NCBI GenBank assembly: GCA_947378425.1
Contig: CANCJV010000023.1
Span: 1-60,419 of the forward strand
Source: Synechococcaceae cyanobacterium
GTDB taxonomy: Bacteria > Cyanobacteriota > Cyanobacteriia > PCC-6307 > Cyanobiaceae
DNA: 60,419 bases
Direction: 5' to 3'
The translations under genes and the position numbers were made by a program. Positions 3,114-25,727 of this stretch are shown one piece after another. The notes under the pieces were generated by a model that did not search any database, was not told where the DNA came from, and saw nothing but the letters and a program-made list of their open reading frames with translations. How positions within the stretch are numbered: position 1 is the stretch's first letter; each line of letters opens with the position of its first letter.

Positions 3114-3608
3114 TCAGAGCAGCGAACGAATCAGATCGGCGATCAGCAGGTTGTCCAGCGAGAGCAGACCACCACCGACGGTCATCAGCACCAGGCACAT
3201 CACCACATACATGGCCGCCTTCTCCCAGCTGGGAGGTTCACCGACTCCCATCGGGCCGGCGTAATCGCCCTCGGGGATCTGGAATGGATCCGGAGCGATG
3301 AACGGGAAACCGGAGCTGATCTCCAGCACCATGGCGTAGGCCATCGACACCAGAATCGCCAGGGCCGCCAGGGGGGTGAGCAGGCCGGGAATCAGGGCGA
3401 TGCCGCCGCCCCACATTGAGGCGGCGGACAGAAAACAGAGCCACTCCGGCGTCTTCATCGCCGTCGACCAGGTCTTGAGATTGCGCAGCTTGGGCCAGCC
3501 GTGGCGAATGAAGGCCACCCCCACGAACAGCCGCAGCACCAGCAGAGCAACGCCCCCTGCCAGGGAAGGCCCCGTGGGCACGAGCAAGGTGACGATCTCG
3601 AGATCCAT
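3114..3608 (-). CDS. DoxX family membrane protein
   Basis: The product is 164 residues with four predicted membrane helices. The first is a glycine/leucine-rich helix followed by LRLFVGVAFIRHGWPKL, the typical DoxX opening. Later helices are SMWGGGIALIPGLLTPLAALAILVS and AAMYVVMCLVLMTVGGG. The loop FPFIAPDPFQIPEGDY is seen in cyanobacterial members. DoxX proteins are small inner-membrane proteins of poorly defined, possibly redox-linked function. The frame stays open a further 89 codons upstream, but that part reads as low-quality sequence; the ATG at 3608 starts a normal DoxX N-terminus. The gene points away from glgX across about 380 bases. Confidence 0.85.
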   Translation of the reverse strand: MDLEIVTLLVPTGPSLAGGVALLVLRLFVGVAFIRHGWPKLRNLKTWSTAMKTPEWLCFLSAASMWGGGIALIPGLLTPLAALAILVSMAYAMVLEISSGFPFIAPDPFQIPEGDYAGPMGVGEPPSWEKAAMYVVMCLVLMTVGGGLLSLDNLLIADLIRSLL

Positions 3609-7030: not shown

Positions 7031-7067
7031 GGCTGATCGAGACATCAGAGGTTGGGAAAGACAGTCC

Positions 7068-7487
7068 TCACGGCAGGGCCGCGGCGCCAGCGGCGGCAAT
7101 GGCACCATCCACATCCGGCGTCATGCCGGAGACGCCGATGGCGCCCAGGCAGACGCCCTCGTACAGCAAGGGCAGGCCACCGGCCATGGCCAGGGTTGGC
7201 TCACCCATGGCTCCCGACAGCTGCATCAAGGCGGGACGCTGTCCATTGATCGCGGCCTCCATCGCCTCGGTGGGCTTGCCGTTGAGAGCGGCCATACGGG
7301 CCTTGGCCAGGGCGGCCTCAACGCTGGCGGGGCTGGCCCCGTCGCGTCGCTCCAGCAGCAGCGGATGGCCAACGGAATCCACGACCGCCAGGCTCACCAC
7401 GGCGCTGCGGCGATCGGCTTCGACCTGGGCGGCGTTGACAATCCCCCGACAGTCGTCGAGTTCAAGCAGAGAAATCAGTCGCATCAT
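7068..7487 (-). CDS. GlcG/HbpS family heme-binding-like protein
   Basis: The 139-residue product matches the GlcG/HbpS family over its full length. It shows AQVEADRRSAVVSLAVVDSVGHPLLL, a helix with ALAKARMAALNGKPTE, then MAGGLPLLYEGVCLGAIGVSGM near the end. Family members are small cytoplasmic or secreted proteins that bind heme or small ligands, often beside catabolic oxidoreductases. No signal peptide is visible. It is 37 bases upstream of the VOC gene on the same strand, so an operon is likely. Confidence 0.85.
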   Translation of the reverse strand: MMRLISLLELDDCRGIVNAAQVEADRRSAVVSLAVVDSVGHPLLLERRDGASPASVEAALAKARMAALNGKPTEAMEAAINGQRPALMQLSGAMGEPTLAMAGGLPLLYEGVCLGAIGVSGMTPDVDGAIAAAGAAALP

Positions 7488-7877: not shown

Positions 7878-8783
7878 TCAGGGCCGCTGGACGCCGCGGG
7901 TGTTGGTGAACAACGCGTAGATGGCCGTGGAGGCACACAGAAAAAGTCGACTGTGGAAGCGGTCACCGAAGCAGAGAGTCGAGACGCGCTTTGGCACCAG
8001 CACCTTGCCCAGCAGGGTGCCATCGGGGCCGACACAGTGCACGCCATCGGCGGCACCGCACCAGAGGTTGCCGTGTTCATCCACCCGGAAGCCATCGGCC
8101 CAGCCCGGGGTGATCTTGTGGAACACCTCGCCACCGGAAAGGGAGCGGCCGTCCTCACTGACATCGAACACCCGGATGTACTGGCGGGGATCGGCCGCTC
8201 CGGGGGCGCCGGACTCGACCACGTAGAGCTTGCTCTCATCCGGCGAAAAGGCCAGGCCATTAGGGCCGTCGAAGTCGGAGGCCATGCGCAGCAATTCGCC
8301 ACTGCCGGGGTCGTAGCGATAGAGCGCAACGGGCTGCTCGGAAACCTGGCGACCACCCTCGTAATCATTCATCAGTCCATACAGCGGATCGCTGAACCAG
8401 ACACTGTCGTCGCTCTTCACCACCACATCGTTGGGTGCGTTGAGCCGCTTGCCATCGGCATGGCTCACCAGGGTGGTGCTGGTGCCGTCGAGCTCGAGAC
8501 GGGTGAGGCAGCGGCTGCGGTGATGGCAGGTGATCAGGCGCCCCTGCCGATCGCGGGTCTGGCCGTTGCCGTAATCCGAAGATTCCCGAAAAACCGTGAC
8601 ACCATGACGTTCACTCCAACGCATGGTGCGGTTGTTAGGGATGTCGCTGAACAACAGACAATCATGGTCGCCGAACCAAACAGGCCCCTCCAGCCAGCGG
8701 AAGCCATCGGCCAGCAGCTCCAGCTCAGCGTTGTGCAGAATCAGCGCGTCAAAGCGGGAGTCATAGCTTTCGGTGAAAGACAT
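7878..8783 (-). CDS. SMP-30/gluconolactonase family protein (intact copy)
   Basis: The product is 301 residues with the six-bladed propeller pattern of SMP-30/gluconolactonase/LRE proteins. It shows the first-blade DGFRWLEGPVWFGDHDCLLFSD with the metal-ligand Glu, RLNAPNDVVVKSDDSVWFSDP with the ligand Asn, FDGPNGLAFSPDESKLYVVES, and DGFRVDEHGNLWCG with the ligand Asp. In the family a divalent metal activates hydrolysis of sugar lactones. The ATG at 8783 is preferred over an upstream in-frame ATG near 8819. No signal peptide is seen, so it is probably cytosolic. Two further relatives lie immediately upstream but are broken. Confidence 0.88.
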   Translation of the reverse strand: MSFTESYDSRFDALILHNAELELLADGFRWLEGPVWFGDHDCLLFSDIPNNRTMRWSERHGVTVFRESSDYGNGQTRDRQGRLITCHHRSRCLTRLELDGTSTTLVSHADGKRLNAPNDVVVKSDDSVWFSDPLYGLMNDYEGGRQVSEQPVALYRYDPGSGELLRMASDFDGPNGLAFSPDESKLYVVESGAPGAADPRQYIRVFDVSEDGRSLSGGEVFHKITPGWADGFRVDEHGNLWCGAADGVHCVGPDGTLLGKVLVPKRVSTLCFGDRFHSRLFLCASTAIYALFTNTRGVQRP

Positions 8784-8853
8784 TGCAAACAGGATACGAA
8801 CAACAATCGATGGATCCAATGCTAGAGCAACTCAGCGACTTGGCTTAGCGCCC

Positions 8854-10095: not shown

Positions 10096-10214
10096 CACCC
10101 CGATCCAGGCGACTAAAGCCAGGGAAGAGCAGCTATCAAGATAAATTCTGATTCAGCTATAGCCCATAAACCTACCAGGATTGGAGGGGAAGATTCACCA
10201 CCAGGCATCCTCCA

Positions 10215-10715
10215 TCAGACATAAGGACAAGCTTGCTTGGGAGCAATAACTTTTGGCATCTGGACAACCATCAAAACAAGCGGTTCATCACCCACCGTGC
10301 CCGAGAGGTGACCACGTTTGCCATCACTCATGACGCAACCTTGATCTTCGCCAAGTGAGAGATCGCCCGGCCCCATCTCAACCCGGGTGCCATCCATCGT
10401 CTCAACAAACCAACGCCCTGAAATCGGGATAAGCCATTGGGGTGCGGGATTCTCATGCCACGTCCCCACCCAGCCTACTGGTTGAATAAGGAAGATGATC
10501 TTCATATCATCTTCAATCTCCAGCCCTTGCCAGATACCCCTGAAGTCCCATTTCTTTTGGTCCGGCGTCCAGGCGTCAGCCCTAGGAATCTTGAATGAAG
10601 TCAGCATGCACTTTGCCTGGCGGCTGATTCCATCAGAGTCGGTCCAAACATGCCAATAAGGGACCTGGGGAGCATCTGCTGCTGCGTCGGCCGTCGGGCT
10701 GTGCTGATCCGTCAT
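10215..10715 (-). CDS. Cupin-domain protein
   Basis: The product has 166 residues. The central and C-terminal part shows a cupin barrel: WHENPAPQWLIPISGRWFVETMDG, then VEMGPGDLSLGEDQG, then GHLSGTVGDEPLVLMVVQMP. The usual metal-ligand His/Glu set is only partly visible. The substrate is unknown. There is no signal peptide. It lies between the two broken SMP-30 copies on the same strand, suggesting it belonged to the same catabolic block. Confidence 0.75.
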   Translation of the reverse strand: MTDQHSPTADAAADAPQVPYWHVWTDSDGISRQAKCMLTSFKIPRADAWTPDQKKWDFRGIWQGLEIEDDMKIIFLIQPVGWVGTWHENPAPQWLIPISGRWFVETMDGTRVEMGPGDLSLGEDQGCVMSDGKRGHLSGTVGDEPLVLMVVQMPKVIAPKQACPYV

Positions 10716-12395: not shown

Positions 12396-13202
12396 ATGAC
12401 CAGCTCCAATCCCCTGGCCGGCAAGGCCCTCTCAACGCTGCTGCAAGGCAAAGTCGCCATCGTCACCGGTGGCAACAGCGGCATCGGTAAATCCATCGTC
12501 GAGTATCTGGCCGAGCTCGGCGCCAAGGTGGTGATCGACTACCGCTCCCACCCCGAGGCCACCGAAGAACTGGAGCAGGAGATCGGTGCCTACGGCGGCA
12601 GCAGCTACGGCGTGCAGGCCGATGTCGGCAAGCTCGACGATCTGCAGCGCCTGGTGGATGCCACCGTCGCGAAGTACGGCCGCCTTGACGTGATGGTCAA
12701 CAACGCCGGCATTGAAACGCGCACCTCGATCCTCACCACCACCCCGGATAACTTCGACAAGGTGCTCGACGTCAACCTGCGCGGCGTCTTCTTCGCCACC
12801 CAGTTCGCCGCCAAACAGATGATCTCCCAGGGCGGCGGCGGCCGCATCATCAACATCTCCTCAGTGCACGAGGACTGGCCCATGCCCGACAACACCCCCT
12901 ACTGCTGCGCCAAGGGCGGCGTGCGCATGCTCACCCGCACCGCAGCCCTGGAGCTGGCCCCCCACGGCATCACGATCGTCAACGTCGGCCCCGGTGCCGT
13001 GGCGACACCGATCAACGACTCCACCATGAACAACCCCGAGCTGCTGGCCAAGCTCAATGCCGCTATCCCCATGGGCCGCATGGCCCAGCCCGAGGAGATC
13101 GCCAAGGTGGTCGGATTCCTGGCCAGCGATGCCGCCAGCTACATCACCGCCGCCACGCTCTTCGTCGATGGTGGCCTGATGCACTGCAGCCCCGGCCTCT
13201 GA
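12396..13202 (+). CDS. Short-chain dehydrogenase, glucose 1-dehydrogenase-like
   Basis: The 268-residue SDR has the cofactor motif TGGNSGIG at residues 24-31, the NNAG motif, IINISS with the catalytic Ser, and the YxxxK pair Tyr169/Lys173 (YCCAK). The end ITAATLFVDGGL is typical of classical SDRs. Sequence features such as VVIDYRSHPEATEELEQEI resemble bacterial glucose 1-dehydrogenases, which oxidise glucose to gluconolactone with NAD(P)+. Substrate assignment at family level is uncertain. The neighbouring lactonase relatives fit a glucose-to-gluconate step. It converges on the NDH-2-like gene with a strong hairpin between. Confidence 0.85.
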   Translation: MTSSNPLAGKALSTLLQGKVAIVTGGNSGIGKSIVEYLAELGAKVVIDYRSHPEATEELEQEIGAYGGSSYGVQADVGKLDDLQRLVDATVAKYGRLDVMVNNAGIETRTSILTTTPDNFDKVLDVNLRGVFFATQFAAKQMISQGGGGRIINISSVHEDWPMPDNTPYCCAKGGVRMLTRTAALELAPHGITIVNVGPGAVATPINDSTMNNPELLAKLNAAIPMGRMAQPEEIAKVVGFLASDAASYITAATLFVDGGLMHCSPGL

Positions 13203-13214
13203 GCCGGGTTGGAT

Positions 13215-13241
13215 GCGGCAGCCTGGCCTTCAGGCTGCCGC
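13215..13241. terminator. Bidirectional hairpin terminator
   Basis: GCGGCAGCCTG and CAGGCTGCCGC form a perfect 11-base inverted repeat around a 5-base loop. It lies 12 bases after the SDR stop and overlaps the last codons of the convergent NDH-2-like gene. There is no T tract, but GC-rich stems like this between convergent genes commonly end transcription. Confidence 0.65.
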
Positions 13242-14612
13242 CGGTGTCTCCTGGGGCTCCGGAGCGGCAGGGTCTTGGGCCCGCTCAGCCCGCTCCAAGC
13301 CCACCTCCACGCCCATGTGCTGATCGGTGCGTCCCGTGATCAGCAGTCCAGCCCGCTGACGAGTGGCGATCATCCACAGCCATTTGGTCAGCAGGGTGAG
13401 GCGATTTTCATTGGCCGGCATGAAGGCCAGGTGTGCCAGCCCCCAGAGCAGCCAGCCAAAGGCCCCACTGACCTTGAATCCCCGCAGGTCCGCCACGGCG
13501 CAGAGGGGACCGATCACCGCCATGCTGCCAAAGTCGAACCAGCGGAAGGTGGTCTGACGATCTCCTGTCATCTGGGCGAGCAGGTCGAGGGCCACCCAGC
13601 CGCCCATCTGCACCGCCGGTCCGGCCATGCCCGGCAGAGGCTTGCCATCCAGCGTGTGCGAATAGGAGCAGAGGTCCCCCACCACCCGGATCTCGGGATG
13701 GCCGGCGATCGAGAAGTCGGGTTCGACCACAACGCGCCCGCCGCGATCGACCGTGCAACCGGTGCGTTGCGCCAGCAACTTGCCGAGATGGGAGGGGCGT
13801 ACGCCCGCACTCCAGCAGATCGTGGCGGCCTCCAGCACCCGCTCGGCCGGTGTTCCTGGCGCCGGATTCTTGAAGGCCACGGTGAGCCGGCCCGCCTCGA
13901 TGCTCTGCACCCGGCCGCCCAGCACCAGCTCCACGCCACGGGAGCTCAGATACTTGCCGGCCGCCTCCGACAGCTCCGGAGCCATCGCCCGCAACACCCG
14001 ATCACCGGGATCGACCAGGTAGACCCGGCAGAGCTGCGGATCCACCTGGCGGAAGTCACGCCGAGCCGCATGCAGCAGCAACTCGTTGATGGAACCGGCC
14101 AGCTCGCAGCCCGAAGGACCGCCGCCGACGACCACCACCGATTGTAGAAAACGACAGCGCTCTGGATCCGGAGTCTGCTCCGCTTCCTCCAGGGCCGAGA
14201 GCACGCGGCGGCGAATTTCATCGGCGTGCTCGAGGATCTTCATCGGCGGCGCCAATTCGCGCCACTCCTCGTGGCCGAAGTAGGTGCTGCCCGAGCCGGT
14301 GGCCAGGATCAGGCTGTCGTAGCGCAGGCGGCGATCGTTGAACACCACCTCCCGGTTGTCGGTGTCGAGATCGACCACCTCCCCGAGCAACACCTGCACA
14401 TTGGCCGCCTTGGCCAGCAACAGTCGCAGCGGCGTGGCGACGTCCGCCTCGGACACCAGGCCGGAAGCCACCTGATAGAGAAGGGGCTGGAAAAGATTGA
14501 AATTGCGCTTGTCCACCAGGGTGACCCGCACCGGTTTGCCCGCGAGGCGATGGGCCGCCTTGAGCCCGGCGAAACCTCCGCCCACGATCACCACGTGAGG
14601 CCAGCTCTTCAT
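13230..14612 (-). CDS. Type II NADH dehydrogenase-like FAD/NAD(P) oxidoreductase
   Basis: The product is about 460 residues, with an N-terminal FAD-binding motif (VVIVGGGFAGLKAA) and LVDKRNFNLFQPLLYQVASG, a hallmark of NDH-2 enzymes. A second Rossmann motif (VVVGGGPSGCELAG) binds NAD(P)H. The C-terminal segment WLLWGLAHLAFMP, followed by WLWMIATRQRAG, is the membrane-association region of this family. NDH-2 transfers electrons from NAD(P)H to quinone at the membrane without pumping protons. The likely start is the ATG at 14612, directly before the FAD motif; an in-frame ATG at 14660 would add 16 residues. A quinone-reducing role would feed the oxidase operon downstream. Confidence 0.88.
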   Translation of the reverse strand: MKSWPHVVIVGGGFAGLKAAHRLAGKPVRVTLVDKRNFNLFQPLLYQVASGLVSEADVATPLRLLLAKAANVQVLLGEVVDLDTDNREVVFNDRRLRYDSLILATGSGSTYFGHEEWRELAPPMKILEHADEIRRRVLSALEEAEQTPDPERCRFLQSVVVVGGGPSGCELAGSINELLLHAARRDFRQVDPQLCRVYLVDPGDRVLRAMAPELSEAAGKYLSSRGVELVLGGRVQSIEAGRLTVAFKNPAPGTPAERVLEAATICWSAGVRPSHLGKLLAQRTGCTVDRGGRVVVEPDFSIAGHPEIRVVGDLCSYSHTLDGKPLPGMAGPAVQMGGWVALDLLAQMTGDRQTTFRWFDFGSMAVIGPLCAVADLRGFKVSGAFGWLLWGLAHLAFMPANENRLTLLTKWLWMIATRQRAGLLITGRTDQHMGVEVGLERAERAQDPAAPEPQETPAAA

Positions 14613-14757
14613 CACGGCTTCGCTCGGCTCAAGCTCAAGGAAGAAGCGTTCCTTCGCCATCGATGCGGTCGGCACAATGCTTGCAAGGTAGTGGCAATCC
14701 CCCGCCAGGGGAGCTCTGCCCTGCCAGGATGCAGAGTCCCTCACTCGCCCTCTGCCC

Positions 14758-15129: not shown

Positions 15130-15627
15130 ATGCAGCTGCTGCTGCCAGCGCTCAATGATCACAACCTGCCCTGGATGGACACCCTCCATCCGATCGTGGT
15201 CCACTTCGTCATCGCCATGGCGGTGATCAGCGTGGTGTTCGATCTGATCGGTGTGGTGCTGCGGCGTCCCAACCTGTTTGAGGTCAGCTTCTGGAACCTG
15301 CTGTTCGCCACGGCGGCCATCTTCGTGGCGATCATCTTCGGCCAGGTGGAAGCAGGTCTGGCGGATCCCTACGGCGCCTCCCGCTCAATCCTCAATCTGC
15401 ACAGCACCCTGGGCTGGTCCCTGGCCGGCATCCTCTCGCTGCTCACCGGCTGGCGTTACGTGCTGCGCAACCGTGATCCCGAAAGCCTGCCGCTGCCGTT
15501 CCTGGCGGCCGGGGGCGTGCTGGCCCTACTCGTCGCGGTGCAGGTCACCCTGGGCAATCAGCTGATCTGGGTCTATGGCCTGCACACGGTGCCAGTGGTG
15601 GCCGCCGGTCGCGCCGGGTTGATCTGA
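15130..15627 (+). CDS. DUF2231 membrane protein 1 of the oxidase operon
   Basis: The 165-residue protein carries the DUF2231 signature LHPIVVHFVIAMAVISVVFD, in which the HP..VHF motif sits in the first membrane helix. Three more hydrophobic helices follow, with conserved His residues (LNLHSTLGW, YGLHTVP) that could bind heme. Function is not established for the family. The stop overlaps the next start (TGATG at 15625-15629), so the two DUF2231 genes are translationally coupled. It is the first gene of the oxidase run. No recognisable promoter in the 117 bases upstream. Confidence 0.85.
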   Translation: MQLLLPALNDHNLPWMDTLHPIVVHFVIAMAVISVVFDLIGVVLRRPNLFEVSFWNLLFATAAIFVAIIFGQVEAGLADPYGASRSILNLHSTLGWSLAGILSLLTGWRYVLRNRDPESLPLPFLAAGGVLALLVAVQVTLGNQLIWVYGLHTVPVVAAGRAGLI

Positions 15628-16298
15628 TGGAGTTCCCCCTGCTCCTGTCCCCTGCGGGGCTGCCCCAGCTGCTGCTGCACATCACCACCCTGCCGGCCGG
15701 CTCGCCGATCAGTCAGTTGGCCAGCTGGCTGGGTCCCAACGATCTGCCCTACAGCCTGCCGATCCATCCGACCCTGGTCCATTTCACGATCGGCCTGTTC
15801 GTGATCGCCATCGCCTTCGACATCGCCGGCGCCCTCTATCCGATTGAAAAGCGGGTCTTCCGCTTCCTGGCCCTGCCGATCACCCGGGCCGGCTTCCACG
15901 ACGTGGGCTGGTACAACCTGCTGGCCTGCGCCGTCGTCAGCTTCTTCACCGTGGCGGCCGGCTTCTTCGAAATGCTGCTGGCGGTTCCGATCCCCGGTGT
16001 CACCAGCACCATCGGCCTGCAGAGCATGGAGACCATGCTCTGGCATGGGGTCGGCGGAGTGGCGATCCTGTTGGTCATCATCGCCATGACCGTCTGGCGC
16101 GGCTATCAGCGATTCCTGTGGCGGCGCGACATGGGGCGCCAGGTGCAGTGGCTCTACCTGCTGGTGGGTCTGGGTCTGTTCCTGGTGATCGGCTTGCACG
16201 GCACCCTCGGCGCTGAACTGGCGGGGGAGTTCGGTGTCCACATCACCGCCGACCAGCTGCTGTCCTCAGGGGCTGATCTGAACGTCGCCCTTCCTTAG
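15627..16298 (+). CDS. DUF2231 membrane protein 2 of the oxidase operon
   Basis: This 223-residue protein is a relative of the preceding gene, with IHPTLVHFTIGLFVIAIAFD as the DUF2231 signature and about five membrane segments. Histidines recur in equivalent places (FHDVGWYN, LWHGVGG, GLHGTLGAEL). The protein begins at an ATG that overlaps the upstream stop. The next gene, oxidase subunit II, starts 12 bases later. DUF2231 proteins adjacent to terminal oxidases suggest an accessory or electron-entry role at the membrane; this is inferred from gene context only. Confidence 0.85.
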   Translation: MEFPLLLSPAGLPQLLLHITTLPAGSPISQLASWLGPNDLPYSLPIHPTLVHFTIGLFVIAIAFDIAGALYPIEKRVFRFLALPITRAGFHDVGWYNLLACAVVSFFTVAAGFFEMLLAVPIPGVTSTIGLQSMETMLWHGVGGVAILLVIIAMTVWRGYQRFLWRRDMGRQVQWLYLLVGLGLFLVIGLHGTLGAELAGEFGVHITADQLLSSGADLNVALP

Positions 16299-16310
16299 GG
16301 ATCTCTCCCC

Positions 16311-17249
16311 ATGACATCCTCATCACCACGCCGCCTCGGCCCCATTGCCCTGGCAGCTCTGGCCCTCTGGATCGGCCTGCTGGCGCTGATCAGCTACTGG
16401 ATGGCAGCCCAGTCGTACCACTGGCTGCCGGTTCAGGCTTCGAACGCCGCCCCTCTGGTCGACGGTCTGTTCAGCTTTGAGACCGGTCTGGGCACTTTCG
16501 TCTTCCTCGGGGTGATCTCGGTGATCGCCTGGGTTGTCCTGAGGCATCGCGCCGAGAAATACGACCAAAGCGATGCCGAGCCGATTGAAGGGAATACCAA
16601 ACTTGAGGTGATCTGGACCGTGATTCCGCTGGTCATCGTCATGGGGATCGCGGTCTACGCGATGCGGATCAACCACCAACTCGGCGTCCTTGGTCCGATG
16701 GAGCACATCCATCCTCACAACGCCATTGAGGCCCAGGGCGGCTACCCGGGTGATCAACTGCCGCCTGAGTCGATTGAAGTGATCGCCCGTCAATGGTCGT
16801 GGGAATTTCGCTATCCCGGAGCCCATGTCTCCTCGACGGAGCTGCATCTGCCGGTCGATCAACCCGTCACCTTCCGCCTCACCTCCGAGGACGTCCTCCA
16901 TGGCTTCTACATCCCAGCTTTCCGCCTCAAGCAGGACGTGATCCCCGGCAAGGCCATCGACTTCAGCCTCACCCCCACCCGCGAGGGTCGCTATCGGCTG
17001 CGGGATTCCCAGTTCAGCGGCACCTGGTTCGCCGCCAACCAGGCCGATGTCGTGGTCGAGACAGCCGAGGACTATCAGGCCTGGTTGACTCAGGCTGCCT
17101 CCTTGCCTCTTCAGGACGGCCTCAGCGATGCCGTTGGTGAGTACCGCGAGCGCCAGACGCAGGTCCATCCCGGCTGGGCCACCGTGCGGCCTGCTCCTCC
17201 GCCTCAGGTGAACGTTCCCGGCTCCAACACGCTCCCCCACGACGCCTGA
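16311..17249 (+). CDS. ctaC: Heme-copper oxidase subunit II without CuA ligands (ARTO type)
   Basis: The 312-residue product has two N-terminal membrane helices and the conserved segment QWSWEFRYPGA, then VLHGFYIPAFRLKQDVIPG, a typical cupredoxin-domain core of subunit II. The CuA site of ordinary subunit II (C-x3-C-x3-H-x2-M) is absent: residues 232-240 read DSQFSGTWF, so both Cys and the His are replaced. Loss of CuA is known for quinol oxidases and for the cyanobacterial alternative respiratory terminal oxidase. The protein is therefore expected to take electrons from quinol rather than cytochrome c. It starts 12 bases after the second DUF2231 gene and ends 4 bases before subunit I. Confidence 0.92.
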   Translation: MTSSSPRRLGPIALAALALWIGLLALISYWMAAQSYHWLPVQASNAAPLVDGLFSFETGLGTFVFLGVISVIAWVVLRHRAEKYDQSDAEPIEGNTKLEVIWTVIPLVIVMGIAVYAMRINHQLGVLGPMEHIHPHNAIEAQGGYPGDQLPPESIEVIARQWSWEFRYPGAHVSSTELHLPVDQPVTFRLTSEDVLHGFYIPAFRLKQDVIPGKAIDFSLTPTREGRYRLRDSQFSGTWFAANQADVVVETAEDYQAWLTQAASLPLQDGLSDAVGEYRERQTQVHPGWATVRPAPPPQVNVPGSNTLPHDA

Positions 17250-17253
17250 GGCC

Positions 17254-18930
17254 ATGACCAGCACCATCCCACTTTCAGGCCCAGAAGAGAACCAAAGCTG
17301 GACCCGCTACTTCGGCTTCAACACCGATGCCAAGGTGATCGGGATCCAGTACATCGTGGTCGCTTTCTTCTTTTTTCTGATCGGTGGCTTCCTCGCCATG
17401 ATCATCCGAGGCGAACTGATCACACCGGCCTCCGATCTCGTCGATCGGACCGTCTACAACGGGCTTTACACGATGCACGGAACGATCATGTTGTTCCTGT
17501 TCATCTTTCCCGTACTCAATGGGCTCAACAACCTGCTGATCCCCACCATGATCGGCGCCCCTGACATGGCTTTCCCGCGACTCAATGCCGTCGCGTTCTG
17601 GCTGGTGCCGATCTTCGGCAGCCTGCTGATCGCCAGCTTCTTCGTGCCAGGCGGGCCCGCTTACTCCGGCTGGTGGTCCTATCCGCCGGTGAGCATCCAG
17701 AACCCGCTCGGCAATCTGATCAGCGGCCAGGGACTCTGGCTGGTGGCCGTGGCCCTCTCCGGTGTGTCCTCGATCATGGCGGCGGTCAATTTCGTCACCA
17801 CGATCCTGCGCATGCGGGCCCCTGGCATGCGCATCTTCCGCATGCCGGTGTTCTGTTGGACGGCCCTTGCCGCCCAGTCTCTGCAGCTGATCGGGCTGCC
17901 CGCCCTGACCGGCGGCGCCGTGATGCTGCTGCTGGACCTCACCGCCGGCACCTCGTTTTACCGGCCAGAGGGAGGTGGTGATCCGGTGCTGTATCAACAC
18001 TTCTTCTGGTTCTATTCACACCCGGCCGTCTATGTGATCATTCTGCCGGTTTTTGGCATCTTTTCAGAGCTGTTTCCCGTTTATTCACGCAAGCCGTTGT
18101 TTGGCTACGTCTATGTAGCCTTGGCCTCCTTCATCATCGTTGGTTTGGGCCTGGTTGTCTGGGTGCACCATTTCTTCCCCAGTGGCGTGCCGGAGTGGAT
18201 GCGCAACCTGTTCATGTTCACGACGATGTTGATCGCCGTTCCCACCGGTGTGAAGGTGTTCGCCTGGCTGGGCACCATCTGGCGCGGCAAGCTGCAGCTC
18301 ACCACGCCGATGCTGTTCTGCCTGGGCGGCCTGATCAACTTTGTGTTCGCGGGCATCACCGGCATCATGCTGGCCACGGTGCCGATCGATATTCACGTCA
18401 ATAACACCTATTTCGTCGTCGGACATTTCCACTACGTGATTTACGGCGCCGCCGTGATGGGCATCTTCGCTGCCATCTACCACTGGTTTCCCAAGTTCAC
18501 CGGCCGCATGCCCTACGAGGGCCTGGGCAAGCTGCACTGCCTGCTCACCTTCGTCGGCGCCAATCTCAACTTCCTGCCCATGCATCCCCTCGGTCTGATG
18601 GGCATGCCGCGTCGGGTGTCCTCCTATGACCCGGAGTTCGCCTTCTGGAACGTGCTCGCCAGTCTGGGGGCCTTTCTGTTGGGGGTTTCGATCATTCCCT
18701 TCCTGCTCAACATGATCAGCTCCTGGGCCCGTGGTCCCCGCGCCACCCACAACCCCTGGAACGCCATCGGCCTGGAATGGCTGCTGCCCTCGCCACCGCC
18801 GGAGGACAACTTCGGCGACCATGTACCCACCGTGATCAGCCGCCCCTACGGCTACGGCCTGGGTGAACCCCTGGTGGAGCACCAGGCCGAGATCGAGAAA
18901 GCGCTCACCCTTGCGGAGGCGACCCGATGA
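17254..18930 (+). CDS. ctaD: Heme-copper oxidase subunit I (ARTO type)
   Basis: This 558-residue polytopic protein carries all the redox-centre ligands: His75 (TMHGTIM) for the low-spin heme, His256 in YSHPAVY, His305/His306 (VHHFF) for CuB, and His391/His393 (GHFHYV) for the two hemes. The cross-link Tyr of the catalytic site is at 260. The proton-channel Glu of the usual HPEVY motif is absent; YSHPAVY at 254-260 is the pattern of A2-type oxidases. It catalyses reduction of O2 to water in the membrane. It is 4 bases after subunit II and its stop overlaps the start of subunit III (ATGA at 18927). Confidence 0.95.
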   Translation: MTSTIPLSGPEENQSWTRYFGFNTDAKVIGIQYIVVAFFFFLIGGFLAMIIRGELITPASDLVDRTVYNGLYTMHGTIMLFLFIFPVLNGLNNLLIPTMIGAPDMAFPRLNAVAFWLVPIFGSLLIASFFVPGGPAYSGWWSYPPVSIQNPLGNLISGQGLWLVAVALSGVSSIMAAVNFVTTILRMRAPGMRIFRMPVFCWTALAAQSLQLIGLPALTGGAVMLLLDLTAGTSFYRPEGGGDPVLYQHFFWFYSHPAVYVIILPVFGIFSELFPVYSRKPLFGYVYVALASFIIVGLGLVVWVHHFFPSGVPEWMRNLFMFTTMLIAVPTGVKVFAWLGTIWRGKLQLTTPMLFCLGGLINFVFAGITGIMLATVPIDIHVNNTYFVVGHFHYVIYGAAVMGIFAAIYHWFPKFTGRMPYEGLGKLHCLLTFVGANLNFLPMHPLGLMGMPRRVSSYDPEFAFWNVLASLGAFLLGVSIIPFLLNMISSWARGPRATHNPWNAIGLEWLLPSPPPEDNFGDHVPTVISRPYGYGLGEPLVEHQAEIEKALTLAEATR

Positions 18931-19529
18931 CCAGCACCCCCATCCCAACCCCCGACCAGGCCGCCAGCCCCGGCGAAGGCCAGCACGCCAGTCACAATCT
19001 CACCGGCTTCATCATTTTTCTCTGCTCCGAGAGCGTCATCTTCCTGGCGTTCTTCAGTGGCTACGCCATCCTGCGCCTCTCCGCCCTCGACTGGCTGCCG
19101 GCCGGCGTGGATGGCCTGGAGTGGCGCACGCCGTTGGTCAACACCGTGGTGCTGGTCTCCAGCTCGATGACGATGGTGGTGGCCGAACACTTCAAAGCCA
19201 AGGAGAAGATCTGGCTCTTCCGCACGTTCTGGTTGCTGACCATGGCGATGGGGGCCTACTTCCTCTATGGCCAGGCCGTGGAATGGAGCGGCCTCAAGTT
19301 CGGCTTCACCTCCGGCACCTTCGGAGGCACCTTCTACCTGCTCACCGGCTTCCACGGGCTGCATGTGGCCACCGGCATTCTGCTGATGGGCCTGATGCTG
19401 ATCAAATCCTTCATCCCCGGCAACTACAACGGCGGCGAAGAAGGTGTGAAAGCCACCTCCCTGTTCTGGCACTTCGTGGATGTGATCTGGATCATCCTGT
19501 TCGTGCTGCTCTATGTCTGGAGAGCCTGA
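18927..19529 (+). CDS. ctaE: Heme-copper oxidase subunit III
   Basis: The 200-residue protein has five membrane helices and the motif TGFHGLHVATGILLMGLML, typical of oxidase subunit III, with the late helix TSLFWHFVDVIWIILFVLLYV. It lacks the first two helices found in larger subunit III proteins, as is usual in bacterial short forms. It stabilises the oxidase core. Its ATG overlaps the stop of subunit I. GMC oxidoreductase 1 follows after only 3 bases, so the oxidase and the flavoproteins are almost certainly in one transcript. Confidence 0.93.
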   Translation: MTSTPIPTPDQAASPGEGQHASHNLTGFIIFLCSESVIFLAFFSGYAILRLSALDWLPAGVDGLEWRTPLVNTVVLVSSSMTMVVAEHFKAKEKIWLFRTFWLLTMAMGAYFLYGQAVEWSGLKFGFTSGTFGGTFYLLTGFHGLHVATGILLMGLMLIKSFIPGNYNGGEEGVKATSLFWHFVDVIWIILFVLLYVWRA

Positions 19530-19532
19530 ACC

Positions 19533-21047
19533 ATGATCATTGACGACAACCACTACGACGTCATCCTGATCGGCAGTGGTGCCGCCGGCGGCACCCTGGT
19601 GAGTGCGCTGGCAGCTGCCGGACATTCGGTCCTGCTGCTGGAACGCGGAGGCGTTCTGCCCCAGGAGGATCAGAACCTTTCCGAGGTGGATCTGTTCCGC
19701 AAGGAGCGCTACCACCCCGACGACAAATGGTTCGGTACCGACGGCGATCCCTTCTCTCCGCAGATGGTGCATGCCATCGGCGGCAACACCAAGATCTGGG
19801 GCGGCGTGCTTGAGCGCATGCGCGAACAGGAGTTCAGCGGCGTCAAGCTGCAGGAAGGCCCCATACCGGACTGGGAACTGCGTTATCAGGATCTGGAGCC
19901 CTGGTATGACCAGGCGGAGCGCCTTTACCACGTTCATGGCGTGGCCGGAGCCGATCCCACCGCCCCCGCCCGTGAAAGCGCCTATCCCGCCGTCCCAAGA
20001 CCCGTGGAGCCGTTCCTGGTGGAACTGCGCGCCGCCCTGGAGCGCCAGGGCCTCCATCCCTACGACCTGCCCCTGAGCTGGTCCGATTCGGCCGTCGATC
20101 CCACCGGCGATGCCGAGCTGTTCGGCGTCAATGCAGTGCGATCCAGCGCCAACGTGGTGGTGAAGGAGAACGCCCGCGTGGTGCAGCTGCACGTCAACCC
20201 CTCCGGCCAGGAAGTGCGAGGCGTTGAGGTGGATATCGCTGGCCAGCGCTGGCTGTTTCAGGGCCATCAGGTGGTGCTCGCCGCCGGCGCGATCGGCACC
20301 CCGGAGATTCTGCTGCGCTCCGCCACCGAGCACCACGCCCGGGGCCTGGCCAACGGCTCCGACCAGGTGGGCCGCAACCTGATGAAACCCCAGCTCACCA
20401 CGATCCTGCAGCTGGCGGCAACCCCCAACTCAGGCCGCTACAGCCGTGGTCACGGCATCACCGACTTCTACTGGGGCGACAAGAACGTCGACTTTCCGCT
20501 CGGTTCGATCCACAACGGCGGCGGCGTCCTGCAGGACGCCCTGTTCGCCGAATCGCCGCCGGTGCTCTCGCTGGTCACACGGCTGCTGCCGGATTTCGGC
20601 ATCGAGCAGCTCGCCTCCCGCTCGATCACCTGGTGGGCGATGAGCGCCGTGCGGCCCGATCCCCACAACCGCGTGCTGCTGCGGGGAAGCCAACTGCAGA
20701 TCCACTACACGCCGAACAACCGCGAAGCCCACGATCGGCTCGTCTACCGCTGGATCGACAGCCTCAAGGCGGTGGAGGCCGATCCCCTCACCCTGGTGGC
20801 CAGAGCGGCCCCCACCCATCCCCGCGGCGAAGCACCTCTGTCGGTGATCGGCGGCGCCTGCGGAACCTGCCGCATGGGTTCGGATCCGGCCACCTCGGTG
20901 GTCAACCTGGAGGGCCGCAGCCATGAAGTACACAACCTCTGGATCGTCGACGCCAGCGTGTTGCCGTCCTGTCCATCGGTGGGCATCGGTCTGACGGTGA
21001 TCGCCAACGCCCTGCGCATCGGCGAAGCGCTGAAGGCATCCCTGTGA
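19533..21047 (+). CDS. GMC-family flavoprotein 1, catalytic residues missing
   Basis: The 504-residue protein begins with the FAD-binding ILIGSGAAGGTLVSALAAAG and ends with a GMC C-terminal domain (GTCRMGSDPATSVVN, then LWIVDASVLPSCPSVG). GMC enzymes oxidise alcohols or sugars using a His and a His/Asn in the C-terminal part. Here the position of the first His (before GTC) is Gly441 and that of the second residue is Gly484. By alignment with GMC 2, both catalytic residues are lost. The five-Cys motif of GMC 2 is also absent. It may be a non-catalytic partner. Its stop overlaps the next start (GTGA). Confidence 0.88.
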   Translation: MIIDDNHYDVILIGSGAAGGTLVSALAAAGHSVLLLERGGVLPQEDQNLSEVDLFRKERYHPDDKWFGTDGDPFSPQMVHAIGGNTKIWGGVLERMREQEFSGVKLQEGPIPDWELRYQDLEPWYDQAERLYHVHGVAGADPTAPARESAYPAVPRPVEPFLVELRAALERQGLHPYDLPLSWSDSAVDPTGDAELFGVNAVRSSANVVVKENARVVQLHVNPSGQEVRGVEVDIAGQRWLFQGHQVVLAAGAIGTPEILLRSATEHHARGLANGSDQVGRNLMKPQLTTILQLAATPNSGRYSRGHGITDFYWGDKNVDFPLGSIHNGGGVLQDALFAESPPVLSLVTRLLPDFGIEQLASRSITWWAMSAVRPDPHNRVLLRGSQLQIHYTPNNREAHDRLVYRWIDSLKAVEADPLTLVARAAPTHPRGEAPLSVIGGACGTCRMGSDPATSVVNLEGRSHEVHNLWIVDASVLPSCPSVGIGLTVIANALRIGEALKASL

Positions 21048-23776
21048 CATTCACCTCTATCTCTGCCGACGTGGTCGACGCCCTCAGTCCCTCCGAAACC
21101 CGGCGCATCGCCGAGCGCGACCACGACGTCGTGCCCTGGAGCCTCTGGGGCAGCTACCTGAGCGAGCGCCAGTGGGGCACCGTGCGGGAGGACTACTCCG
21201 CCGACGGCGACGCCTGGACCTCCTTCCCCCACGACCATGCCCGCTCCCGCGTCTATCGCTGGGGTGAAGACGGCCTGCTGGGCCTCTGCGACGAACAGTG
21301 CCGCCTCTGTTTCTCACTGGCCCTCTGGAATGGCGCCGATCCGATCCTCAAGGAGCGGCCCTTCGGCCTGGGCAATCCGGAAGGCAACCACGGCGAAGAC
21401 CTCAAGGACTATTTCTTCCATCTCGCCAACACGCCCACCCACAGCTTCATGCGGGCGCTCTACAAGTACCCGCAGCGAGCGTTCCCCTATGAGGATCTGC
21501 TGGCGGAGAACGGCCGTCGCGGACGTGATCAGGCCGAATACGAACTGATCGACACCGGCATCTTCAACGAGAACCGCTACTTCGATGTCGTCATCGAGTA
21601 CGCCAAGGCCGGACCGGAAGATCTGCTGATCCGGATCAGGGCCACCAACCGCGGCCCCGACCCCGCACCCCTGACCCTCTTGCCCAGCCTGTGGCTACGC
21701 AACACCTGGCGCTGGGGCTATCCCGATGAAGTCGAGCACCAGATCACCCTGGCAGCCCCAGCTGACAACGATCCCGGCAGCGATGCCGTCGTCACCGATC
21801 TCATCCCTCATCTGGGGATCTATCAGCTCGACTGCCGGGAGCCCGGCACCTGGATCTTCACCGACAACGAAACCAACAGCGAGCGACTCTGGGGCCAACC
21901 CAACCCCACGCCTTTCCAGAAGGACGGCTTCCATCGCCACGTGATCAACGGCGAAGCCGGTGCGGTGAACCCAGACCTGCACGGCAGCAAGGCCGCCCGG
22001 CTGGTGCAGCACACCCTGGCCGCCGGCGAGGAGTGGGTGCTGGAGCTGCGCCTGCGCCGTGTCGATGCTCCCGCCCAGAACACCGACCAGCCGGCTTCGG
22101 ATCCGTTCGCGGATTTCACCGCGATCTTCGCCGAGCGCGAGCAGGAGTGGCTGGAGTACTTCGAGCAACACGTGCCGGGCCTGTCCGAGGACGACCGCCG
22201 CATCCATCTGGCCGGCACTGCCGGCCTGCTCTGGTGCAAGAAGTACTACGGCTGGAGTGTGCTGCGCTGGCTCGAAGGGGACCCCACCGGCACCCCTCCC
22301 CCCAGCGAACGCCAGCACACCCAGAACGCCTACTGGAAACGGCTGCACGCCCACGACGTGATCTCGATGCCGGACTGCTGGGAGTACCCCTACTTCTGCC
22401 AGTGGGATCTGATGTTCCACTCGGTGGCCTTCGCCGTCTTCGATCCGGCCACGGCCAAGGAGCAGTGCATGCTGCTGCGCAAACCCCACTACACCGCCCC
22501 CAACGCCCAGACGCCGGCCTACGAGTGGGCCCTCTCCGATCCCAATCCGCCGATCGGCGCCTGGGCGGCGATGCGCATCTATCAGATCGATCGCAAGCAA
22601 ACCGACGCCCCCGACCTGGGCTTTCTGCGCGCGGCTCTGCGCAAGCTGATCCTGGAATACGGCTGGTGGGCCAACCGCAACGACCGCTCCGGTGACAACG
22701 TCTTCGAGGGGGGGTTCCTGGGCCTCGACAACATCGCCGTCTTCGATCGGCGCTTCCCCCTCGCCGATGGCAGCATCATCGAGCAGTGCGACGGCACCGC
22801 CTGGATGGCCTCCCTCAGCCTCAACCTGCTGCAGATCGCCGTGGAACTGAGCCGTGAGGAGCCGGAGTATGCCGACATCTGCGAGCGCTTCGTCGTCGAT
22901 TTCGTGCAGCTGGCGATCGGCCTCAACAACCCCTCCGGCCGCAACTATCTCAACTGGGACGAAGAGGACGGCTTCTATTACGACGTGATCAAACGGCCTG
23001 ACGGCAGTGTTGACTACCTGCGCACCCGCTCGCTCTCGGGCCTGGTGCCCCTGCTGGCGGTGCAGAGCTTCGACATCGACACCGTGCAACGGCTACCGAT
23101 GCTCGACGTCACCCACACCCTGGCCTGGTTCACCCACGAACGCACCACTCCCTCCTGGATGGTGCACAACCTGGGGATCTGGAACAACGACCGGGTGCTG
23201 TTCACCCTCGTGCCCAGAGAGCGCCTGCAACGCATCTGCGAACGCCTCTTCGATGAGGAGGAGTTTCTCTCTCCCTACGGCATCCGCTCCCTCTCCAAGG
23301 TGTATGAGAAGCACCCCTACACCTACACCGAAGGCAGCCAGAGCCAGACCCTCACCTACAGCCCCGCCGACAGCCCGGTGGCGATGTTCGGTGGCAACTC
23401 CAACTGGCGCGGTCCGGTGTGGATGCCGATGAACTTCCTGTTGATCGAATCGCTGCAGAAGTTCGCCCATTTCTACGGCGACAGCTTCAAGGTGGAGTTC
23501 CCCAGCCGCTCCGGCAACTGGATCACGCTCTGGCAGGCCTCCCTCGAGCTGGAGAAGCGACTGGTGGGCCTCTTCCGCCGCGACAGCCAGGGACGCCGCC
23601 CCTTCAACGGAAATGTGGAGACGTTCCAGAACGATCCCCACTGGCGCGATCTGATCCTGTTCAACGAGTACTTCCACGGCGACAATGGCAGCGGCGTCGG
23701 CGCCTCCCACCAGACCGGCTGGAGCGCCATGGTCTGCAAGATGCTCAACCAGCTCTCCCGCTACCCCGACGGCTGA
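21044..23776 (+). CDS. GH63/MGH1-like alpha-glucosidase
   Basis: A GTG overlapping the GMC 1 stop begins a 910-residue protein. It resembles the bacterial MGH1-like/GH63 glycoside hydrolases, which share an (alpha/alpha)6 barrel with mannosyl-oligosaccharide glucosidase. Visible features are GTVREDYSADGDAWTSFPHD near the N-terminus, SMPDCWEYPYFCQWDLMFHS in the barrel, and NSNWRGPVWMPMNFLLIES near the C-terminal acid. It contains no signal peptide, so it probably acts in the cytosol on an alpha-glucoside or glucosyl-glycerol-like compound; substrate unknown. It lies between the two GMC genes, 104 bases before GMC 2. Confidence 0.88.
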   Translation: MTFTSISADVVDALSPSETRRIAERDHDVVPWSLWGSYLSERQWGTVREDYSADGDAWTSFPHDHARSRVYRWGEDGLLGLCDEQCRLCFSLALWNGADPILKERPFGLGNPEGNHGEDLKDYFFHLANTPTHSFMRALYKYPQRAFPYEDLLAENGRRGRDQAEYELIDTGIFNENRYFDVVIEYAKAGPEDLLIRIRATNRGPDPAPLTLLPSLWLRNTWRWGYPDEVEHQITLAAPADNDPGSDAVVTDLIPHLGIYQLDCREPGTWIFTDNETNSERLWGQPNPTPFQKDGFHRHVINGEAGAVNPDLHGSKAARLVQHTLAAGEEWVLELRLRRVDAPAQNTDQPASDPFADFTAIFAEREQEWLEYFEQHVPGLSEDDRRIHLAGTAGLLWCKKYYGWSVLRWLEGDPTGTPPPSERQHTQNAYWKRLHAHDVISMPDCWEYPYFCQWDLMFHSVAFAVFDPATAKEQCMLLRKPHYTAPNAQTPAYEWALSDPNPPIGAWAAMRIYQIDRKQTDAPDLGFLRAALRKLILEYGWWANRNDRSGDNVFEGGFLGLDNIAVFDRRFPLADGSIIEQCDGTAWMASLSLNLLQIAVELSREEPEYADICERFVVDFVQLAIGLNNPSGRNYLNWDEEDGFYYDVIKRPDGSVDYLRTRSLSGLVPLLAVQSFDIDTVQRLPMLDVTHTLAWFTHERTTPSWMVHNLGIWNNDRVLFTLVPRERLQRICERLFDEEEFLSPYGIRSLSKVYEKHPYTYTEGSQSQTLTYSPADSPVAMFGGNSNWRGPVWMPMNFLLIESLQKFAHFYGDSFKVEFPSRSGNWITLWQASLELEKRLVGLFRRDSQGRRPFNGNVETFQNDPHWRDLILFNEYFHGDNGSGVGASHQTGWSAMVCKMLNQLSRYPDG

Positions 23777-23880
23777 GTCCTCCCGGTAACGGTCCGGTGT
23801 GGCATCGGGCTGCTGCACGCCCAAACGGACGCCTTGCTTCGTTGCTCTCCGCCCAGCTCACACCCGCTGCCATCACCACC

Positions 23881-25536
23881 ATGAGCTCCCCGTCCCCCAG
23901 CGCCGCTTCCGTCTCCGCCGCGATCGCAGGTCCGAGCTTCCACTCCTCGCCCCTGCCTGAAGCGGCCCAGCTACAGGTCGCAAACGGCGCTCACTTCGAC
24001 GTGGTGATCATCGGCAGCGGTGCCGGTGGCGGCACCCTGGCCCGCCATCTGGCCGCCACCGGCCTGAAGGTGCTGGTGCTGGAGCGGGGCGACTGGCTGC
24101 CTCAGGAACCGCAGAACTGGGATGCCGACGCGGTGTTCCAGCAGAACCGCTACGTCTCGAAGGATCCCTGGCTCGACAAGCACGGCAAGGCCTTCCAGCC
24201 CGGCAGCCATTACTTCGTCGGTGGCGCCACCAAGATGTACGGCGCCGCCCACTTCCGCCTGCGCCAGCAGGATTTCGAGGAACTCGCCCACTTCGACGGC
24301 AGCTCGCCGGCCTGGCCGCTGCGCTATTCGGACTTCGAGCCCTGGTATCAGAAGGCCGAAGAGATGTATCACGTGCACGGCCAGCGCGGTGAGGATCCCA
24401 CCGAGCCGCCCTGCAGCGGCCCCTATCCCCATCCGCCGGTGGCCCACGAGCCTCGCATGCAGAAGCTGGTCGACGACCTGCGCTCCGCTGGGCTCCATCC
24501 CTTCCATGCCCCCAGCGGCGTGATGCTCGATGAGGCCAACCTGGCCTTCAGCCGCTGCCGCAAGTGCAACTGCTGCGATGGTTTCCCCTGCCTGGTGCAC
24601 GCCAAGTCAGATGCGGAGGTGCTGGGGATGCGGCCGGCCCTGGCGTCGACCAATGTGTCGCTGCTGACCCGGGCCCAGGTGAAACGCCTGGTCACCGATG
24701 AATCCGGCCGCACCGTCAAAGCCGTGGAGCTGGAGCGTGACGGCGAACCGCTGACCGTCAGTGGCGATGTGGTGGTGGTGAGCTGTGGCGCCGCCAACAG
24801 CGCCCGGCTGCTGCTGATGTCGGCCAACGACAGCCATCCCCGCGGCCTGGCCAACGGCTCCGACCAGGTGGGCCGCCACTACATGTTCCACAACAGCAAG
24901 GCGATGGTGGCCCTGGCCCACGAGCCGAACCACACCGTCTTCCAGAAAACGGTGTCGATCAACGACTGGTATCTCGGGGATGCCGACTTCGACTACCCGA
25001 TGGGCAACATCCAGATGACGGGCAAGACCAGCGGCACGATCATGAAGGGCTATGCCCCGCTGGAGACCTTCCTGATGCCGGGCTGGAGCATGGACAAGAT
25101 CGCCGAGCACGCGATCGACTTCTGGATCTCGAGTGAAGATCTCCCCGATCCCGACAACCGGGTGACGGTGACCAGCACAGGACAGATCCAGCTCAGCTAC
25201 ACCCCCAACAACCTCACCGCCTCAGCGCGTCTGGTGAGCCGCCTGGAGGGCATGCTCGATCGCCTCTATCTGCGCAACCATCTGGTGGAGCGCCAGATCT
25301 ACATCGCCAACAGCATGGGGATCGCCGCCGTGGGTCACCAGGCCGGCACCTGTCGCTTCGGCAGCGATCCGGCCAGCTCGGTGCTGGATCTCAACTGCAA
25401 AGCCCACGAACTCGACAACCTCTATGTCGTCGACACCAGCTTCATGCCGACGATCGGCGCCGTGAACCCCTCGCTCACCGCCATCGCCAACGCCCTGCGG
25501 GTGGGCACCCATCTGGTGGAGCGGCTGAAGGGTTGA
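23881..25536 (+). CDS. GMC-family oxidoreductase 2 with five-cysteine motif
   Basis: The 551-residue protein has the FAD motif VVIIGSGAGGGTLARHLAATG at about residues 40-60, ALERG-like VLERGDWLP, and a GMC C-terminal domain. The catalytic His486 (GHQAGTC) and Asn529 (AVNPSLT) are present. A CxxCxCCxxxxC motif (Cys226, 229, 231, 232, 237) sits between the FAD and substrate domains. In some bacterial FAD-dependent sugar dehydrogenases cysteines in this region hold an Fe-S cluster that passes electrons to a respiratory carrier; equivalence here is inferred. The frame is open far upstream, but the ATG at 23881 gives the right N-terminus. No signal peptide is evident, only an Ala/Ser-rich leader. 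Confidence 0.88.
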   Translation: MSSPSPSAASVSAAIAGPSFHSSPLPEAAQLQVANGAHFDVVIIGSGAGGGTLARHLAATGLKVLVLERGDWLPQEPQNWDADAVFQQNRYVSKDPWLDKHGKAFQPGSHYFVGGATKMYGAAHFRLRQQDFEELAHFDGSSPAWPLRYSDFEPWYQKAEEMYHVHGQRGEDPTEPPCSGPYPHPPVAHEPRMQKLVDDLRSAGLHPFHAPSGVMLDEANLAFSRCRKCNCCDGFPCLVHAKSDAEVLGMRPALASTNVSLLTRAQVKRLVTDESGRTVKAVELERDGEPLTVSGDVVVVSCGAANSARLLLMSANDSHPRGLANGSDQVGRHYMFHNSKAMVALAHEPNHTVFQKTVSINDWYLGDADFDYPMGNIQMTGKTSGTIMKGYAPLETFLMPGWSMDKIAEHAIDFWISSEDLPDPDNRVTVTSTGQIQLSYTPNNLTASARLVSRLEGMLDRLYLRNHLVERQIYIANSMGIAAVGHQAGTCRFGSDPASSVLDLNCKAHELDNLYVVDTSFMPTIGAVNPSLTAIANALRVGTHLVERLKG

Positions 25537-25541
25537 GCCAG

Positions 25542-25560
25542 CCGCCCCGGGTGGGGGCGG
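25542..25560 (+). terminator. Hairpin at the end of the oxidase operon
   Basis: CCGCCCC and GGGGCGG pair over 7 bases around a 5-base loop, six bases after the GMC 2 stop codon. There is no T tract, but position and strength fit termination of the oxidase-GMC transcript. Confidence 0.55.
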
Positions 25561-25727
25561 ACTGAGGGCCAGATGGGATCGAAGCTGGCACCCTGGAGCC
25601 GCAGCGAAGGCGGCCGGATGTTCCAGCGGCTTCGACGGGAAGGCCCTGCCCTGATCGTGGGGCAGGCTGGTTAAGGGGTGCTGCGCCGCCCTGCTCGCTC
25701 CGGACCTGGGCTCTGGATCTGCGTTCC

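Follow-up and report, generated by a model that had tools for sequence, protein, structure and literature searches.

A run of eight genes, encoding a terminal oxidase together with flavoproteins and a glucosidase-like protein, lies between positions 15130 and 25536 of the window, which is the whole stretch of 60,419 nucleotides analysed here and corresponds to contig C23 in the draft genome (3.6 Mb, 84 contigs) of a Synechococcaceae cyanobacterium. An earlier interpretation of the window, made by a model from its letters and here called the sequence-only reading, described eight tightly packed co-directional genes, and the coordinates, overlaps and gaps all agree with that description. Pfam matches above cut-off were obtained for all eight predicted proteins. 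In the list that follows, ARTO is the alternative respiratory terminal oxidase, CuA the copper centre of oxidase subunit II, GMC1 and GMC2 are flavoproteins of the GMC family, and A and B are the two modules into which the run divides.

15130..15627, + strand, DUF2231 membrane protein a (module A; PF09990, E 7.9e-36)
15627..16298, + strand, DUF2231 membrane protein b (module A; PF09990, E 1.4e-37; one base in common with protein a)
16311..17249, + strand, CtaC, oxidase subunit II without CuA (module A; PF00116/PF02790; gap of 12)
17254..18930, + strand, CtaD, oxidase subunit I (module A; PF00115, E 2.1e-151; gap of 4)
18927..19529, + strand, CtaE, oxidase subunit III (module A; PF00510; overlap of 4)
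19533..21047, + strand, GMC1, predicted ARTO-linked flavoprotein without the His/Asn pair (module A; PF05199, PF00732; gap of 3)
21044..23776, + strand, GH63 glucosidase-like protein (module B; PF22422, PF03200; GTG start; overlap of 4)
23881..25536, + strand, GMC2, putative flavin dehydrogenase with intact His/Asn pair and Cys-rich insertion (module B; Pfam match; gap of 104)

Comparison between genomes reveals that module A comprises DUF2231-DUF2231-CtaC-CtaD-CtaE-GMC1 and module B GH63-GMC2. Among the best 80 of 380 GMC1 loci (the named loci), the closest of which are from Cyanobium/Synechococcus-like organisms, 47 carry the eight genes in the same order, which is far beyond chance, and several others are cut by contig ends. 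CtaE directly precedes GMC1 in 79 of the 80 (L182 is cut), and GH63 directly follows it in 63. When the selection was instead for loci with GH63 and GMC2 of the window type (60% identity or more; 30 loci, partly from the same genomes as the named loci), the oxidase was present in the same stretch at 25, all eight genes being found there. Synechococcus RCC307 (L157) is among the organisms with all eight genes. The two modules also occur apart, and the single dedicated eight-gene system proposed in the sequence-only reading does not stand for that reason.

In a phylum-wide sample of 292 genomes, 32 from 12 families encode a GMC1 orthologue of full length (475 bits or more), and in all 32 an ARTO CtaD lies, by coordinates, within 4 kb of GMC1 on the same contig. 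Nineteen of these 32 loci were fetched, and the order of the six module A genes is kept in 18, the other (L094) beginning inside the cluster at a contig end; at L090, 2.7 kb separates CtaE from GMC1. L097, fetched with them, carries a 43% relative that is GMC2-like and was left out of this count. The six-gene order is also present in 10 of 10 further Cyanobiaceae ARTO loci. Module B joined module A in the Cyanobiaceae.

The window genome contains two COX1 genes. The canonical cox1 is on contig C30 (L069), where subunit II carries the CuA motif CAELCGPYHGGM. In ARTO, D and S stand at the positions of the two CuA cysteines in every one of the 56 subunit II proteins compared, and the Met position is retained in 22 of these. 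The ligand motifs of ARTO CtaD are almost invariant (HPAVY and HH in 58 of 58 rows, HG and HFH in at least 57 of 58), and the solved relatives of CtaC include quinol oxidase subunit 2 (6kob). Judged by these motifs, the window oxidase is of the known cyanobacterial ARTO/Qox type, a CuA-less heme-copper oxidase, as had been proposed from the sequence alone. Plastoquinol is the likely substrate, given the absence of CuA and the account in the available text of PMC6616624. The same source gives the ARTO operon of Anabaena as alr2729-alr2730-coxB3-coxA3-coxC3. The role of ARTO is debated, with heterocyst O2 removal, Fe(III) reduction and a minimal cytoplasmic-membrane chain all suggested (PMC6616624 and PMC10119275, each as available in part); ctaC2D2E2 and iron are treated in PMC10119275, in which published proposals link ARTO with Fe(III) reduction and low-iron niches.

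Both DUF2231 proteins (window 15130-16298) contain conserved membrane histidines, in HPxxVH and other motifs, and in protein a His 20, 25, 91 and 152 are present in at least 95% of 55 proteins. These histidines could be heme ligands. An AlphaFold2 model of protein b was of moderate confidence (mean pLDDT 74), and its best match in a Foldseek search of the PDB had an E value of 0.39; oxidase subunit III and cytochrome b561 appeared among the matches, too weakly to serve as evidence, and a known heme or oxidase fold was rejected for this protein. A role for DUF2231 proteins in the oxidase was not described in the literature searched, which was mostly without subscription journals and excluded supplements.

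GMC1 has a mean column identity of 69% across 11 diverse sequences. The FAD-binding GxGxxG is present as GSGAAGG, PF00732 and PF05199 are above cut-off, and the best-scoring solved relatives by sequence, for GMC1 and GMC2 alike, are glucose and fructose dehydrogenases. The catalytic pair of this family is intact in none of 45 GMC1 orthologues, the His being present in four and the Asn, replaced by G, S or P, in none; the Cys-rich insertion is also lacking. With the pair missing in 45 of 45, the assignment of GMC1 in the sequence-only reading as a sugar-oxidizing enzyme is unsupported. On residue patterns GMC1 is not a canonical alcohol/sugar dehydrogenase but an ARTO-linked flavoprotein, and it may serve the oxidase as a partner in electron transfer or regulation.

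The His/Asn pair of GMC2 is kept in 38 of 38 proteins (35 aligned rows and three re-read) and aligns with His476/Asn519 of the Burkholderia FAD-glucose dehydrogenase (FAD-GDH), which are catalytic in that enzyme according to the available text of PMC6719666. There is in addition a Cys-rich insertion, Cx2Cx2Cx4C (three of the cysteines occur in all 35 rows and the fourth in 33), at the position where the Burkholderia enzyme, BcGDH, holds a 3Fe-4S cluster through Cys212/218/222 (PMC6719666, likewise in part). An Fe-S cluster in GMC2 is plausible but unproven, since the spacing of the cysteines differs and L099 lacks the exact motif.

By its modelled fold, the window GH63-like protein belongs to GH63. 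Structural matches to the model, which has a mean pLDDT of 77, include GH63 alpha-glucosidase I (E 1.1e-19) and YgjK; a phmmer search of the PDB with the sequence gave no match at E 0.001. The candidate acids D455 (52 of 52 aligned) and E875 (51 of 51) are invariant and, together with the fold, uphold the earlier identification of a GH63-like glucosidase. We take these two residues to be catalytic on the basis of YgjK and MgH motifs, not of residue alignment. A second GH63 of 44% identity (G000:C77:4451-6934, L068) is on a 7-kb contig of the window genome that contains no other searched genes.

A simple Kyte-Doolittle scan found no N-terminal hydrophobic signal in GH63, GMC1 or GMC2, and the single hydrophobic segment of GMC1 coincides with its GxGxxG motif. 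On this basis a secreted or periplasmic mode of action was rejected for all three proteins; the lack of recognizable signal peptides suggests that their substrates, including the glucoside, are probably intracellular. Glucosylglycerol was rejected as an obligate substrate, as no member of the GgpS family (TIGR02398) was detected in the window genome or in 30 of the 42 GH63-bearing Cyanobiaceae genomes, some of which are incomplete.

These 42 genomes come from a set of 151 Cyanobiaceae genomes in which window-type GH63 was scored at 60% identity or more, three genomes whose only matches were more distant being excluded. ARTO is present in 39 of the 42, against 64 of the 151 overall (hypergeometric p ~1e-15, uncorrected for relatedness). 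The phylogenetic co-occurrence on which the sequence-only reading had made its proposal depend is therefore found. The three GH63 genomes without ARTO (G103, G105, G138) are 74-88% complete.

All the partner genes recognized in the window, including an NDH-2-like (type 2) NADH dehydrogenase gene and members of the short-chain dehydrogenase/reductase (SDR) and SMP-30/gluconolactonase-like (SGL) families, are upstream of the eight-gene run, from 3126 to 14744.

13230..14744, - strand, NDH-2-like NADH dehydrogenase, divergent from module A (PF07992)
12396..13202, + strand, SDR, module B partner (PF13561; 19 of 30 module B loci have an orthologue at 60% identity or above)
10215..10715, - strand, cupin, module B partner (49% to a protein of L043 whose Cupin_2 match is below cut-off)
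7878..8819, - strand, SGL, module B partner (77% to an L043 protein matching PF08450, E 1.3e-44)
7068..7487, - strand, GlcG/HbpS-like protein, module B partner (64% to an L043 protein matching PF03928)
6056..7114, - strand, VOC (glyoxalase/dioxygenase superfamily) protein, module B partner (61% to an L043 protein matching PF00903)
3126..3608, - strand, DoxX membrane protein, module B partner (positions from a tblastn match rather than an open reading frame; 78% to an L043 protein matching PF07681)

The NDH-2-like protein matches PF07992 strongly and PF22366 (NDH2_C) at 25.1 bits, below the cut-off of 27.7. The SDR is presumably glucose 1-dehydrogenase-like. At least one of SDR, SGL, VOC, GlcG, cupin and DoxX is encoded in the same stretch at 28 of the 30 module B loci, L055 and L072 being the exceptions. 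Individually, SDR, VOC and DoxX were each found at 19 loci, SGL at 12, and cupin and GlcG at eight each; these are lower bounds, because the stretches, apart from the 60-kb window, are of 18 kb or less. Among 32 control loci (nine with GH63 paralogues, the canonical cox1, 19 with module A and no GH63 in the stretch, and three other ARTO loci), no accessory genes or GMC2 were detected save two weak SDR matches, NDH-2 not being counted. NDH-2-like homologues of 28-43% identity, unchecked by domain search, adjoin ARTO in several families.

Two extra copies of SGL are present on the minus strand of the window (8854-9798 and 11004-12065); they are 34-35% identical to the L043 protein and look broken or split between frames. 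In L189 and in Synechococcus WH7803 (L191), SGL and cupin genes are upstream of the six-gene ARTO unit, with neither GH63 nor GMC2 in the same stretch. A contig titled as a Bifidobacterium breve metagenome-assembled genome (L137) carries the cyanobacterial cluster, with GMC1 93% identical, and probably comes from a mislabelled or contaminated assembly.

CtaD proteins of 60-65% identity form another ARTO clade (support 0.82; 0.92 for the window clade). Thirteen such loci were found and ten examined, and at five of these (L099, L100, L103, L104, L107) two or more of GH63, GMC2, SDR, SGL, VOC, cupin and DoxX are encoded nearby. At L099 the order is SDR-GH63-DUF2231-DUF2231-CtaC-CtaD-CtaE, followed by GMC2 on the opposite strand. 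Of the five, only L099 and L100 have GH63, and the two proteins form a group of their own (support 0.999), apart from the GH63 clade of Cyanobiaceae (0.997). Oxidase and carbohydrate genes were apparently assembled separately with this second ARTO clade, and this is the best evidence for a functional link between them. They seem to have been joined in differing combinations, which inheritance of a single operon would not account for.

Exchange is also indicated within the window-type cluster. The tree of the CtaC-CtaD-CtaE block (window 16311-19529) differs from those of the flanking DUF2231, GMC1 and GH63-GMC2 genes in its placement of L036, L044, L045 and L047 versus L037 and L040. The trees of the oxidase block, the DUF2231 pair, GMC1, and GH63 with GMC2 reject each other in approximately unbiased (AU) tests on 25 loci (p <0.003, an approximate value from only 2000 replicates), and a single jointly inherited operon was rejected. 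Parts have therefore been exchanged in place; the oxidase genes were apparently replaced as a cassette inside a conserved operon.

Signals for transcription were also sought in the window. The hairpin that had been reported after the last gene is present, GC-rich and 3' of GMC2 at about 25539-25564, but has no T-run and is unexceptional for GC-rich DNA (z -1.67; 12 of 200 shuffles fold equally well). A terminator scan did not report it, and an intrinsic terminator after GMC2 was rejected on these grounds. A sigma-70 promoter scan, which found none, is uninformative, since 1.2 are expected by chance. Between the NDH-2-like gene and the first DUF2231 gene is a gene for a small Nif11-domain protein (84 aa; 14758-15012), which is 82-95% identical in ten close-relative loci, two pairs of which share contigs.

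Gene content, order, conservation, recurrence and residue patterns are direct observations. The explanation that we prefer, and to which we would give an even chance, is that of a two-module respiratory gene island, in which the ARTO of module A and an intracellular glucoside-oxidation module B would be connected, electrons passing via plastoquinone to O2. The reactions, substrate, electron path and co-transcription that we infer are as follows. GH63 would free a sugar from a cytoplasmic alpha-glucoside; GMC2 (with FAD, and perhaps Fe-S) and/or the SDR would oxidize it; and the SMP-30 type lactonase would open the resulting lactone. Electrons from NADH would reach plastoquinone through NDH-2, and those from GMC2 perhaps directly. 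ARTO would pass plastoquinone electrons to O2, acting as a sink, with GMC1 tied functionally to the oxidase. An extended form of this explanation, in which ARTO ends a chain of intracellular glucoside oxidation in these lineages and has GMC1 as a flavoprotein partner or subunit, the GMC fold serving electron transfer or regulation and not alcohol oxidation, is unlikely; if true, it would describe a flavin-coupled quinol oxidase, for which no description was found in the literature searched.

Several findings weigh against the gene-island explanation. Thirteen named loci have 10 kb of downstream sequence without GH63; L147, L149 and L181 have GH63 after GMC1 and no GMC2 in the 10 kb downstream; and five of the 30 GH63-GMC2 loci (L048, L049, L051, L056, L057) have neither oxidase nor GMC1 in the stretch, their genomes carrying the six-gene unit elsewhere (within about 15 kb for L056 and L057). 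Of 65 ARTO CtaD loci of the window type (at least 840 bits), 33 are, by the match lists, without an adjoining GMC1, 32 of them in family f7; three of the 33 (L110-L112) were fetched. Given the 33 of 65 ARTO loci without GMC1 and the five of 30 GH63-GMC2 loci without oxidase, neither module strictly needs the other. Outside the Cyanobiaceae, accessory genes accompany the six-gene unit in 0 of 13 loci (L084-L096). Five of the ten second-clade loci (L101, L105, L106, L108, L109) are without the gene set, although L108 is cut by a contig end and the L101 genome has an SDR-GH63 pair 16 kb away. The five that have the set are confined to three groups (two each in f11 and genus g79, one in f15) and so are not five events. 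No membrane anchor or quinone site was recognized in GMC2, and glucosylglycerol is unlikely as a general GH63 substrate because of the distribution of ggpS described above.

Since both modules exist apart, shared regulation without electron coupling is a serious rival. ARTO and GMC1 would then form a cytoplasmic-membrane electron sink or Fe(III)-reducing device, and module B would be used under the same circumstances (dark, stress, iron limitation) while remaining uncoupled from it. ARTO is widespread without an adjoining module B, and the proposals tying it to Fe(III) reduction and low-iron niches (PMC10119275, available text) accord with such a device. What looks like an independent gathering of this set around the second ARTO clade, the NDH-2-like genes that adjoin ARTO in several families and the near absence of accessory genes from the control loci argue otherwise, and we regard shared regulation as possible, if somewhat unlikely. 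The linear chain of the sequence-only reading, in which GH63 releases sugar, both GMC proteins oxidize it and reduce quinone, and ARTO reduces O2, draws on gene order, on the flavoprotein folds and on the glucose and fructose dehydrogenases that are the closest solved structures. Its GH63 and oxidase steps fit what was found, as does the SDR, SGL and NDH-2-like context. Oxidation of sugar by GMC1 does not: none of the 45 orthologues has the catalytic Asn and 41 also lack the His, GMC1 is without the Cys-rich insertion, and it follows ARTO at loci without GH63. The complete linear chain is accordingly improbable. It might also be supposed that module B is biosynthetic, trimming and oxidizing a glycosylated product with tailoring by the VOC and cupin proteins, and that the oxidase only keeps redox poise. 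The VOC, cupin and GlcG-like genes, unneeded for simple glucose oxidation, would be accounted for in this way, but a gluconolactonase-like protein and an SDR fit catabolism, and there is very little probability in a tailoring role.

The association of GMC or GH63 genes with ARTO was not described in the literature searched, and the word GMC is absent from the main text of PMC10119275 and from the available text of PMC6616624. ARTO is widespread in cyanobacteria and its role is debated; the gene set provides concrete candidate electron donors. A flavoprotein gene is tied to ARTO across 12 sampled families, and putative glucoside-oxidation genes have gathered beside ARTO apparently at least twice. 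The arrangement, kept in many relatives, and the apparently separate second assembly point to a possible sugar-fuelled role for ARTO. GMC1, as a well-conserved GMC protein without the catalytic pair, is a target in the search for a new use of the GMC fold.

Compared with known systems, the window oxidase resembles the Anabaena ARTO (type-1 alternative respiratory terminal oxidase) in its CuA-less subunit II, its three subunits and the two genes ahead of them; the two genes ahead of coxB3 in Anabaena are likely, from loci L110 and L112, to encode DUF2231 proteins. It differs in being followed by GMC1, GH63 and GMC2, none of which was found at L110 and L112 of family f7, which appears to be Nostocaceae-like. 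The GH63 protein shares its fold, candidate acid D455 and base E875 with the eukaryotic processing alpha-glucosidase I and E. coli YgjK, but is only 12-15% identical to solved GH63 structures. The Burkholderia FAD-GDH alpha subunit and FdhL are the best-scoring solved relatives of the GMC proteins, and GMC2 has their His/Asn pair and, at the corresponding position, a Cys-rich insertion, both of which GMC1 lacks. The cysteine spacing is CCx4Cx3C in the Burkholderia/FdhL proteins and Cx2Cx2Cx4C in GMC2, the window GMC proteins have no recognizable signal peptide, and genes for hitchhiker gamma and cytochrome c beta subunits were not found in the eight-gene run, to which that search was limited. 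Finally, the window resembles minimal chains of NDH-2 and quinol oxidase, in that an NDH-2-like gene adjoins a quinol-type oxidase, and differs from them in the addition of a putative carbohydrate-oxidation set.

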